Shown here one piece after another: positions 26,041 through 29,032 of a DNA stretch of 34,089 bases. The DNA comes from Dethiobacter sp. (GTDB taxonomy: Bacteria > Bacillota > Dethiobacteria > Dethiobacterales > Dethiobacteraceae). The stretch is from positions 1-34,089 of the forward strand of contig DYEY01000062.1 in the NCBI GenBank assembly GCA_020725465.1, in the 5' to 3' direction. Position 1 is the first letter of the stretch; each line of letters opens with the position of its first letter. Both the position numbers and the translations under genes were made by a program. The notes below the pieces were generated by a model that was not told the origin of the DNA, ran no database searches, and was given only the letters and a program-made list of their open reading frames with translations.

Positions 26041-27417
26041 TTACGGTACGATCAGGAGTACCGCACTTATTATAAAAATAAAAATTATGCACACCACAGC
26101 AGTGTAGCCCATAAAATCCCTGGCTTTTATGTTCATCAGTTTAACCATAACCGGCAGAAATGTCAGAGTCCAAAACGGGTTAATCAGATTTGTTACCGCG
26201 TCTCCATAACCAAAGGCTATGATAACTTTCTCCAATGGCGCTCCCAGAGTCTGAGCGGCTGGCAGAATTGAAGGCGCCAGCACTATCCACTCGCCACCGC
26301 CGGAGGGGATAAACAGGTTAACCAGCGCCGCGGTGATAAATGTAAAAAGCGGGTAAGTATAAGCGGTGCTGATGTTGACAAACCACTGTGCAACTACAGC
26401 GGAAAGCCCTGAAAACATGAAGATTCCCATGATGCCGGCATAAAAAGGAAACTGAATCAGAAGGTCGCCGATACCCTTAACCGCCTCTTTCATTGCATCA
26501 ATATATTTAATTGGTGTGCCGTGTAACAGAAGTCCAAGAATCAGGAAAAAAAAGTTTACTGTGTTCAAATTCAGACCGTTTATGCCGGTACGTGCAAAAT
26601 AGGGCAGTATATAGATAAAGCCGGATATAACGATAATAAGGGTGAGTATTCTGCTATTGTTAAGCCTGTCGGAGATGCTGACTGGAGCTACCGGGGTTTT
26701 GGTCAGCTGAGTTTCGGCTGTAGCAACAGTTTCTACCCCACCATTCCTTTCCCATTGCAGAGCAGCATCAAACCTTTCTTCTACTCTCCTCGGAACCAAA
26801 AACAGGATAATTATGGGAATTAAAACGAAGCTGGTTATCAGCAACACTATGTTGACTGTGCTCCCCAGTGTCGCACCAGTGGGAATTACGTCATTCACCA
26901 GCCCCATTTTAATAAATTGGTTGCCTGGGGTGTTCATCATCAGCGGTGCTGAAGCAGACAGGCCGCCATGCCAAGGGATTATGGCCGTGTATATGGCAGC
27001 ACAGGCCAACCTAAAATCTATCCCCTTTATCCTGCGACATATTTCCACAGTAAAAACCGCTGCAACAGGTATCAATCCCCAGTTTATCGTAATCAGAACC
27101 AGAGAAACCAGAGAGATAGACAAATAAGCTGCGATAGGTTTGTTAATTTTCCTGGCAAGAGCATCAAAACCGCGTCCCACAGGTCGTGAGATTCCAACGC
27201 AATAGCCCAATGTAATAATCAGAGCCATTTGCATGGAAAACTCCAGCATGTTCCAGAAGCCTTTGTACCAGTGAGAAAAGATATCAATGAATTTGGTCGG
27301 TGTCAGTGCCAACGCGAGAATAGCTGCGATAATTGTCAGTAAAAATGCAAATACCAAAGAGTCGGGCAGCCATCTGCTAAATCTGTCAGCAAAAAAAGCA
27401 CCGATACTTCTGAGCAT
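26041..27417 (-). CDS. atoE: AtoE family short-chain fatty acid transporter
   Basis: This 458-residue membrane protein has about ten helices. AtoE family sequences are WYKGFWNMLEFSMQMALIITLGYCVG, AAIYTAIIPWHGGLSASAPLMM, and near the end NLFIPSGGGEWIVLAPSILPAAQTLGAPLEKVIIAFGYGDAVTNLINPFW. AtoE of E. coli brings in short-chain fatty acids such as acetoacetate precursors. The longest frame opens at TTG 27438, inside the Shine-Dalgarno stretch. ATG 27417 lies nine bases after AAAGGAG and is taken. The keto-acid cleavage gene is 56 bases upstream on the same strand and is probably cotranscribed, suggesting uptake of a beta-keto or short acid. Confidence 0.92.
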   Translation of the reverse strand: MLRSIGAFFADRFSRWLPDSLVFAFLLTIIAAILALALTPTKFIDIFSHWYKGFWNMLEFSMQMALIITLGYCVGISRPVGRGFDALARKINKPIAAYLSISLVSLVLITINWGLIPVAAVFTVEICRRIKGIDFRLACAAIYTAIIPWHGGLSASAPLMMNTPGNQFIKMGLVNDVIPTGATLGSTVNIVLLITSFVLIPIIILFLVPRRVEERFDAALQWERNGGVETVATAETQLTKTPVAPVSISDRLNNSRILTLIIVISGFIYILPYFARTGINGLNLNTVNFFFLILGLLLHGTPIKYIDAMKEAVKGIGDLLIQFPFYAGIMGIFMFSGLSAVVAQWFVNISTAYTYPLFTFITAALVNLFIPSGGGEWIVLAPSILPAAQTLGAPLEKVIIAFGYGDAVTNLINPFWTLTFLPVMVKLMNIKARDFMGYTAVVCIIFIFIISAVLLIVP

Positions 27418-27473
27418 CCGCTGTCTCTCCTTTCCCAAAATCGAACTATTTTCTTTTTCCTCTTGTTCTTGTG

Positions 27474-28394
27474 CTAAAACCCTACCTTTTCCAATCCTTT
27501 CAGCTCCAGCATCGATCGGGCGTCGTCGGGAGTGGCGATTTCCAGGCTTAATTCCCTGGCTATGTTCACCACCTTTCGTACCTGGTCAGCGCTGCTGGTA
27601 GCCAGAACACCTTTGCCGGCGTAGAGGCTGTCTTCCAGGCCGACCCTCACATTGCCGCCCATGGCTAAAGCCGCTGCGCAAATGTTCAGCTGGTGGCGGC
27701 CGGCGGCACAGACAGACCAGTTGAATTTACCGATGAGTTCCCTGGCTGTACCAAGCAGGGTTACCAGATTGGGCACTGATGCCGGCAGCCCACCAAGTAT
27801 TCCCAGCACAAACTGCATATAAACCGGAGGCTTCAGATAACCCTCGGCTATTAACTGGGCGGCGTTGTTGATCATGCCAAGGTCATAAATCTCCAGTTCC
27901 GCCCTTGTTCCATGTGCGTTCATGGTCTGCAGGAAATACTTCATGGTGGCAAAGGTGTTGCTGAACACAAAATCTTCGGTAAACTCAAGATATTTCTTTT
28001 CCCATTCGAACTTATAATCTTTGATTTTCTCCACCACCGGGTACAGTGCAAAGTTCAGAGAACCCATGTTAAATGATGCCAGTTCCGGTTTAAAAACAGT
28101 TACAACCTTAATACGGTCCTCCTTGGTCATGCCAAGACCTCCGCCAGTGGTGGTGCATACCACCACGTCGCACCGCTCCCGGATTTTCCGCAGTATTTCA
28201 CCGTAGTGTTCCATGTCGGCCGAAGGTTGACCGGTCTTGGGGTCACGGGCATGAATATGTACCACTGCTGCGCCCGCTTCATAAGCTTTAACGGCGTCGT
28301 CGGCGATCTGCTGCGGGGTGATGGGCAGGTATGGCGACATGCTGGGTACGTGAATTGCCCCGGTTATGGCCGCGGTAACGATTACTTTAGACAC
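27474..28394 (-). CDS. BKACE family beta-keto acid cleavage enzyme (DUF849, Kce-like)
   Basis: Enzymes of this family combine a beta-keto acid with acetyl-CoA, giving acetoacetate and a new CoA ester; the founding member cleaves 3-keto-5-aminohexanoate in lysine fermentation. The 306-residue product has the zinc ligands His46 and His48 in VVHIHARD and Glu254 in NVRVGLEDS. The start region lacks the Glu at position 14 seen in Kce, so the natural substrate is probably not the lysine intermediate. I use GTG 28394, ten bases after AAAGGAG; TTG 28403 lies only two bases after it. An AtoE-like carrier follows in the same operon. No other lysine-fermentation gene is in the window. Confidence 0.92.
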   Translation of the reverse strand: MSKVIVTAAITGAIHVPSMSPYLPITPQQIADDAVKAYEAGAAVVHIHARDPKTGQPSADMEHYGEILRKIRERCDVVVCTTTGGGLGMTKEDRIKVVTVFKPELASFNMGSLNFALYPVVEKIKDYKFEWEKKYLEFTEDFVFSNTFATMKYFLQTMNAHGTRAELEIYDLGMINNAAQLIAEGYLKPPVYMQFVLGILGGLPASVPNLVTLLGTARELIGKFNWSVCAAGRHQLNICAAALAMGGNVRVGLEDSLYAGKGVLATSSADQVRKVVNIARELSLEIATPDDARSMLELKGLEKVGF

Positions 28395-28448
28395 AAATCC
28401 CAATCTCCTTTCATAACTACTACTAACGTAGTGATAGCTTTATTTGAT

Positions 28449-28477
28449 ATTGTATTGCACTTTAATAACTATGTCAA
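28449..28477 (-). promoter_or_regulatory. Near-consensus promoter of the keto-acid cleavage operon
   Basis: On minus, TTGACA (28477-28472), 17 bases, then TACAAT (28454-28449). The leader to GTG 28394 is about 45 bases. It holds a small inverted repeat ACTAC/GTAGT (28419-28423, 28428-28432). TACGTTA within it also occurs in the MerR promoter spacer, but on the opposite side. Confidence 0.82.
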
Positions 28478-28526
28478 TATTGGAAAGATTTGAAATGCTT
28501 TTGCTGTGGCAGGGAAATCAGCACTC

Positions 28527-28548
28527 TTGTGGAATAAATTTGTGGAAT
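28527..28548 (+). repeat. Direct repeat upstream of the CBS gene
   Basis: TTGTGGAAT occurs at 28527-28535 and again at 28540-28548, 13 bases apart. It may be a regulator site or a chance duplication. No convincing promoter was located for the CBS gene. Confidence 0.35.
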
Positions 28549-28609
28549 GAAAACAAAGAAATTTACAGGCAGGCATCAATCGTCAAACTGCGGAAAGGGG
28601 TAATATCCC

Positions 28610-29032
28610 ATTAACGTTGCGTTCTTTCTTGTACCGAAAAAAGAGGTTGCTTTTTTGCAATCGTCGTGTACCATGCGCCAGGCCATCGAGAAAATGGAAT
28701 TCCACCGCTATACCGCCATACCCATAATTGACCAGGATGGCAAATACGTCGGCACCATCACCGAGGGCGACCTGCTCTGGGCTTTGAAGAACATCCCCGG
28801 CCTGACCCTGGAAAATACGGAAAAATTTCCGCTTAAAGACATCCCCCGTCATATTGAGAATGCCCCGGTCCGGATTGAGGCCACCATTGACAGCCTCCTT
28901 TCCCTTGCCATTACCCAGAACTTCGTGCCGGTAGTGGACGATGATGGTATTTTTATCGGTATAGTGAGAAGGCGGGAAATAATTGAGTACCTGGCCGGTC
29001 AGCTTAAAGGCAACCAAGGGGAAAAAGAATAA
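28610..29032 (+). CDS. CBS-domain protein, apparent ATT start
   Basis: The 140-residue protein has two CBS motifs; HRYTAIPIIDQDGKYVGTITEGDLL is the first. The second is FVPVVDDDGIFIGIVRRREIIEYL. CBS pairs usually bind adenine nucleotides and act as energy sensors. Clostridial homologues open with sequences like MNxxFFLxPKxxVAxL. Here the frame reads (ATT)NVAFFLVPKKEVAFLQSS, preceded by an in-frame stop at 28601-28603. ATT 28610 lies nine bases after AAAGGGG. The only conventional start downstream is TTG 28655, which drops the conserved opening and lacks a ribosome site. The gene stands alone on plus. Confidence 0.82.
   Translation: MNVAFFLVPKKEVAFLQSSCTMRQAIEKMEFHRYTAIPIIDQDGKYVGTITEGDLLWALKNIPGLTLENTEKFPLKDIPRHIENAPVRIEATIDSLLSLAITQNFVPVVDDDGIFIGIVRRREIIEYLAGQLKGNQGEKE

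Follow-up and report, generated by a model that had tools for sequence, protein, structure and literature searches.

Conserved non-canonical start codons are already known from bacterial genes such as infC, ccpN, cvfC1 and sigR. A 1987 paper reportedly found that mutating the AUU start of Escherichia coli infC to AUG led to loss of autocontrol. In Staphylococcus aureus, non-canonical starts gave about 10% of the output of an AUG reporter in poor medium, while the ccpN AUA codon reached up to 30% in rich medium and the cvfC1 AUU codon showed no medium-dependent change; the AUA start of ccpN is kept between S. aureus and Bacillus subtilis (PMC13009471, excerpts). The GTC start of Streptomyces sigR is repressed by IF3, as was shown with extra infC and with infC alleles (PMC5472188, excerpt). 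In ancestral reconstructions, AUU was gained once from 61,358 ancestral AUG codons and once from 5,080 ancestral GUG codons, and changes from ancestral GUG or UUG to AUG were far commoner than the reverse (PMC5622118, excerpt). DarB, the solved fold nearest to that of the protein considered here, is a c-di-AMP receptor that activates Rel (PMC9848473, excerpt). In B. subtilis, too much DarB retards growth by way of Rel when potassium is at 0.1 mM and leaves growth unaffected at 5 mM (PMC7900238, excerpt), and the harm at low potassium provides a reason for keeping such a protein scarce.

The window, by which we mean the whole stretch of 34,089 nucleotides analysed here, encodes at 28610-29032 on the forward strand a CBS-pair protein of 140 residues with a DarB/CbpB-like fold, as assigned by Pfam, AlphaFold2 and fold comparison. 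The locus reads, in order, AAAGGGG, TAA, TAT CCC, ATT and AAC GTT GCG TTC TTT CTT GTA CCG, and translation from 28610 gives INVAFFLVPKK.... The initial annotation had placed the start at this ATT (28610-28612, forward strand), and the local features it named are found on the same strand: a TAA at 28601-28603 closes the frame upstream, in the sequence as in the open-frame listing; the Shine-Dalgarno-like AAAGGGG at 28594-28600 lies nine bases 5' of the ATT; and the nearest ordinary start is a TTG at codon 16 (28655-28657), the next being an ATG at codon 22 (28673-28675), which encodes the methionine of TMRQ. The open frame (28604-29032) comprises 142 codons, and codons 2-15 (28613-28654) belong to the protein only with the ATT start.

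Other open frames touch this region. An 18-codon frame, in frame with the CBS gene, runs from an ATG at 28547 to the TAA at 28601 (28547-28603) and ends at the Shine-Dalgarno block. L034 and L035 share the TAA in this frame, but L025 and L029 do not, and the small frame is therefore probably due to chance. On the minus strand, an antisense frame of 144 codons starting with TTG (28583-29017) covers nearly the whole CBS gene and gave no match in a Pfam search. It exceeds the CBS frame as counted from TTG 28655, and a gene finder could thus pick the wrong strand.

The product contains two stretches of the Pfam CBS domain (PF00571, E 1.3e-19) and no other domain was found in it. The best NCBIfam model is CbpB (NF041630), and since its 73.9 bits lie below the cut-off of 125 the protein was not filed as CbpB. 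An AlphaFold2 model built from 22 sequences reached a mean pLDDT of 91.6; Foldseek ranked DarB with c-di-AMP first (E 3.3e-11), and DarB/YkuL and CbpB were the nearest solved folds among the matches listed. In VIA-align, model residues 1-135 superposed on 1yav_B (YkuL/DarB) with Z 19.2, rmsd 2.2 and 133 aligned residues, the alignment beginning at DarB residue 12 with an identity of about 21%; other CBS pairs among the matches listed (best 50) had Z of 14 to 16. The residues around c-di-AMP in DarB are named in PMC9848473 (excerpt). Placed from the terminal aligned residues (offset 11 at the N-terminal end and 10 at the C-terminal end) rather than from a printed alignment, these contacts would fall on V8, V13, A14, Y34, T35, I37, P38, F105, I118, R120, R121 and R122. 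By the end-offset placement, 10 of the 12 contacts from this excerpt would be identical in the window protein; within the bacterial family, Y34, P38, F105, I118 and R121 are kept in 15/15 orthologues and R122 in 14/15, and positions 14, 35 and 37 vary. DarB T130 corresponds to an arginine. The position of DarB A25, which is A14 in the window protein, is Val or Ile in 14/15 family members, and changing A25 to Gly abolished Rel binding by DarB (PMC7900238, excerpt). As this position is not Ala in most family members, Rel is the less certain part of the comparison as a target. Fold and contact residues together make c-di-AMP or some other adenine nucleotide a likely ligand.

Alignment of homologues, which the initial annotation had suggested as a check, was carried out on 19 genomes of the bacterial family, taking as orthologue any match at E up to 1e-20. 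An orthologue was found in 15 of them, representing nine of 11 genera, and the Met position is ATT in all 15; in L031 and L036 the ATT lies one codon earlier and is followed by an extra Asn codon. The start codon is never ATC or ATA. Codon 3 of the same sequences is ATT in seven, ATC in seven and GTT in one, and the remaining counted Ile codons of the 15 genes are ATT (107), ATC (65) and ATA (49). By naive chance, with relatedness ignored, 15 ATT codons would have a probability of 1.9e-5. Together with the selection on codons 2-15 reported below, this conservation strongly supports the annotated start, and judged from sequence a small sensor-like CBS protein is very probably translated from ATT. 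That every family relative with the gene has kept the codon suggests that the cell deliberately holds the protein scarce. The four genomes with no orthologue at E 1e-20 are G001, G003, G004 and G018; two of them belong to genus g5, in which the gene is present in two further species. Either the gene is dispensable there or the assemblies are incomplete.

Orthologues outside the family present a different picture. The outside set consists of 153 distinct loci rather than genomes, as some genomes contribute two, and was drawn from all 35 class genomes with a match beyond the family (50 of the 97 class genomes match in total), from the matches in an even phylum sample (104 of 398 genomes) and from named genomes. 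G292, a fragment lacking the N-terminus, was omitted, and copies of other loci (L001, L002, L019, L003, L004, L005 and L006) as well as L023, of only 19 residues, were removed before counting. An ordinary start was accepted if it coincided with the Met position or lay no more than six codons 5' of it. By script, 152 of the 153 loci had one (ATG 120, TTG 16, GTG 16), and L201, whose N-terminus does not align, was scored 'none'. The corrected count is 151 of 153, since in L042 the script's GTG falls within the Shine-Dalgarno and the Met position is ATA. The same rule applied to the family scores 14/15 as having no ordinary start and L030 as ATG. The 15 family proteins group together in a 77-protein tree, with a support of 88/84 that is under the tool's mark for firm support, and adjoin L166, a TTG starter; a single origin of the ATT start is the simplest reading of this tree. 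L042 (G019:C177, class family f2) carries its ATA after GGGAGGTG, 3 bases before the match, and was seen in one genome only. Being placed away from the ATT family in the tree, it may represent a second, independent shift to a non-canonical start.

The block 5' of the ATT is AAAGGGG in 12 of the family orthologues, AAAGGAG in one and AAAAGAGG in two, and in the 12 carrying AAAGGGG the gap from GGGG to ATT measures 7-9 bases. The predicted duplex with the 16S tail amounts to -7.0 to -8.2 kcal/mol over the 15 orthologues, compared with -9.8 to -15.7 kcal/mol for infC and a median of -8.7 kcal/mol for 63 ATG-starting orthologues elsewhere. While infC thus offsets its AUU by strong pairing, the CBS gene does not, and low CBS output would be expected. 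Single-sequence folds paired the AAAGG with U-rich Phe codons in several orthologues. A conserved hairpin masking the Shine-Dalgarno was nevertheless rejected: randomisation of synonymous codons gave a mean z of 0.03 (15 sequences) and RNAalifold returned no structure. Rfam had no match at gathering level within 28380-28720 and one sub-threshold match (E 0.57). We also searched 59 genomes for the block AAAGGGGTNATN5ATTAAY, tolerating one mismatch. It occurred at 28 places in 21 genomes, with the CBS gene accounting for four of these places (G000, G012, G014 and G016), and the reversed control at eight places; because the block, with its spacing fixed, overlooks 11 of the 15 family orthologues, we do not take it as evidence.

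The textbook sigma-H consensus served as the starting lead for a promoter motif. AGGRW-N16/17-GAAT was present within 150 nt 5' of the start in 11 of the 15 family orthologues, where first-order Markov resampling predicts 0.107, and in six of the 94 other loci listed (1.08 expected). Five permuted -10 words gave 0, 0, 0, 3 and 0 hits in the 15 orthologues, the three stemming from TGAA. In the window, the motif scan places the element at 28511-28535 on the forward strand, with AGGGA on the -35 side, GAAT on the -10 side and a span of 25 bases, 74 bases 5' of the ATT. It is absent in L025, L027 and L028, which belong to one genus, and in L029, where a near match was judged by eye. Clostridioides difficile promoters listed as SigH-dependent have similar spans of 25-26 (PMC7438776 Table 3, in excerpt). 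The motif suggests that the CBS gene is probably transcribed from a sigma-H-type promoter. Its flanking genes, BKACE and a Gate-domain membrane protein, lie on the other strand. No neighbour was common to more than seven of the 23 loci compared, which ruled out operon structure or synteny as an explanation, and as the neighbours are not shared across the family we regard the gene as standing alone. Further along the minus strand (26041-28403), a short-chain fatty acid transporter gene (PF02667) adjoins that of the beta-keto acid cleavage enzyme (PF05853), and the two may belong to a cluster for the fermentation of amino acids or keto acids.

We posit, with a probability of roughly 0.7, that this is a single-gene unit with a sigma-H-type promoter encoding an ATT-started, DarB-like nucleotide sensor that is held scarce via IF3. 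The reading builds on the ATT codon, its conservation, the selection on the N-terminus, the promoter motif and the predicted fold. Transcription from the promoter at 28511-28535 would occur at transition phase, and the initiator tRNA, guided by AAAGGGG, would start the protein at ATT 28610. The product would be a CBS-pair (Bateman) module built like DarB/CbpB that binds c-di-AMP or another adenine nucleotide. Rejection of AUU by IF3, combined with an only moderate Shine-Dalgarno, would keep the protein level low, and this level would rise under relaxed IF3 discrimination. The ATT was probably fixed once in the ancestor of the family and kept since because an excess of the sensor would be harmful, like that of DarB in B. 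subtilis at low potassium.

An unlikely but serious alternative is that the ATT is indeed the start, yet a neutral relic: an ATG was lost by one change and the weak start has been tolerated ever since, without dosage or IF3 control. The tree is compatible with one origin, absence of the gene from four of the 19 family genomes indicates that low output may be tolerable, and the leader has no conserved structure that would suggest tuned control. However, the codon has been retained in all orthologues across nine genera and has never returned to ATG, one base away. Drift would predict otherwise, as switching is mostly toward AUG and gains of AUU are very rare in the excerpt of PMC5622118.

Another possibility is that some species initiate upstream at an ordinary start, which would give a variable N-terminal extension. 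Five orthologues (L025, L027, L030, L036 and L037) do have an in-frame ordinary codon between the upstream stop and the ATT, but in the other ten the frame is closed before any ATG, GTG or TTG. The upstream codon lies at least 12 codons before the ATT in L025, L027 and L037, and in L036 it is a TTG immediately 5' of the AAAGGGG; L030 has an ATG just two codons 5' of its ATT, yet only 2 bases 3' of the GGGG. Computed from every pairwise comparison among the 15 family orthologues, pN/pS of the nine in-frame codons 5' of the ATT is 0.801, resembling non-coding DNA, and in 15/15 a Shine-Dalgarno-like block is suitably spaced from the ATT. Upstream initiation is accordingly very improbable.

Still a little harder to believe is a start at TTG 28655 or ATG 28673, with the ATT codon belonging to the leader. 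These are the nearest ordinary starts and the ATG is kept in 15/15 orthologues, as codon 22 or, in L031 and L036, codon 23. The TTG, however, is found in L024, L029 and L041 only (3/15), and the ATG has no Shine-Dalgarno, with duplex energies 5' of it between -2.6 and +1.9 kcal/mol over the 15 orthologues; we judge the former not to be a start and the latter to be internal. Moreover, pN/pS is 0.088 for codons 2-15 and 0.154 for codons 16-61, so that by this measure the stretch in question is under purifying selection and more constrained than what follows. The N(V/I)AFFL opening is common to the family proteins and to ATG-starting orthologues outside the family, and the first ten residues, with a pLDDT of 89, are part of the predicted fold. 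Starting at codon 16 or 22 would cost the protein 15 or 21 residues and with them a portion of its probable ligand pocket, and the TTG start would delete V8, V13 and A14 of the contact set. With codons 2-15 constrained and the N-terminus lying within the fold, neither codon is credible as the sole start. A sequencing or assembly error masking an ATG at 28610, conceivable in a 78-contig draft assembly with ATT one base from ATG, is excluded for practical purposes by the recurrence of the same ATT in fifteen genomes of nine genera.

To gauge how widely ATT starts are used in the window genome, we scanned 356 kb of it (the window and 20 further stretches, about 12% of the genome) with 317 open frames. 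A strong Shine-Dalgarno followed by ATT occurred in frame nine times, and only infC had it within the first 30 codons; the infC stretch had been deliberately included and serves as a positive control rather than as a find of the sampling. An ordinary start with the scan's Shine-Dalgarno words was recovered for only 105 of the 317 frames. A duplex-energy scan of those frames that lacked a good ordinary start (69 of 337) showed no excess of ATT (4/65 for ATT, like other codons). The CBS gene was flagged by neither scan, and given this and the 105/317 recovery the scans show only that ATT starts are uncommon. One ATT candidate, L158, was a low-complexity frame taken for antisense and was dropped.

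infC itself was matched in every family genome but G013 (18 of 19) and has an ATT start in all 18 (L118-L135), so such a start is in use in the family; gene callers limited to ATG, GTG and TTG would misplace it in these genomes. The copy of the window genome lies at G000:C63:1627-2121 (L134), apart from the CBS gene. The parallel that the initial annotation drew to infC holds for the codon and its family-wide use but does not extend to feedback, as the CBS protein is not IF3 and has a weaker Shine-Dalgarno. Literal infC-type autocontrol is not supported because the protein cannot close the loop itself, and the ATT more likely signifies low expression, perhaps tuned by IF3.

More speculatively, the AUU start might couple a DarB-like sensor to the translation machinery and thereby link initiation fidelity with the stringent response in a loop, an idea that we consider improbable. 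When free IF3 per initiating 30S falls, perhaps at the stationary-phase transition with the sigma-H-type promoter firing, AUU initiation would go up and more sensor would be made, Rel and (p)ppGpp would be adjusted and ribosome production would be set. If true, the loop would have been kept through a bacterial family, and IF3 would act as a regulator of second-messenger signalling.

A limited literature search, with most subscription journals outside it, found no report of an ATT start for this CBS gene, nor any paper joining 'CBS domain' with 'noncanonical start codon' (in the unhyphenated spelling only). What appears to be new is the gene, the conservation over nine genera, the moderate Shine-Dalgarno, and the combination of such a start with a DarB-like sensor and a sigma-H-like promoter. 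The protein carries ordinary starts outside the family and ATT within it, and the two groups thus lend themselves to a natural comparison.

Set against the known systems, the locus shares features with each. DarB/CbpB provides the best fold match, and by the end-offset placement most of the published c-di-AMP contacts would be identical in the window protein; the differences are the identity of about 21%, a score short of the CbpB cut-off and the changes at the T130 and A25 positions. With infC the gene has in common the AUU start codon within the same bacterial family, but infC encodes IF3, and hence regulates itself, and has GGAGG with strong pairing where the CBS gene has AAAGGGG. S. aureus ccpN (AUA) and cvfC1 (AUU) likewise combine a conserved non-canonical start with a conserved Shine-Dalgarno in Firmicutes, although theirs is described as strong and extended (PMC13009471, excerpts) whereas that of the CBS gene is moderate. 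The ccpN product also carries CBS domains (PDB 3fv6, titled CBS domains of the B. subtilis CcpN repressor); CcpN is, however, a repressor with an AUA start, and the window protein a bare CBS pair with an ATT start. Streptomyces sigR resembles the CBS gene in that a rare start, GTC, sets the level of a regulatory protein (PMC5472188, excerpt), and differs in codon and in protein, its IF3 dependence being demonstrated and that of the CBS gene proposed. By analogy, the CBS gene together with sigR and ccpN suggests that bacteria may use IF3-discriminated starts to hold signalling proteins scarce.
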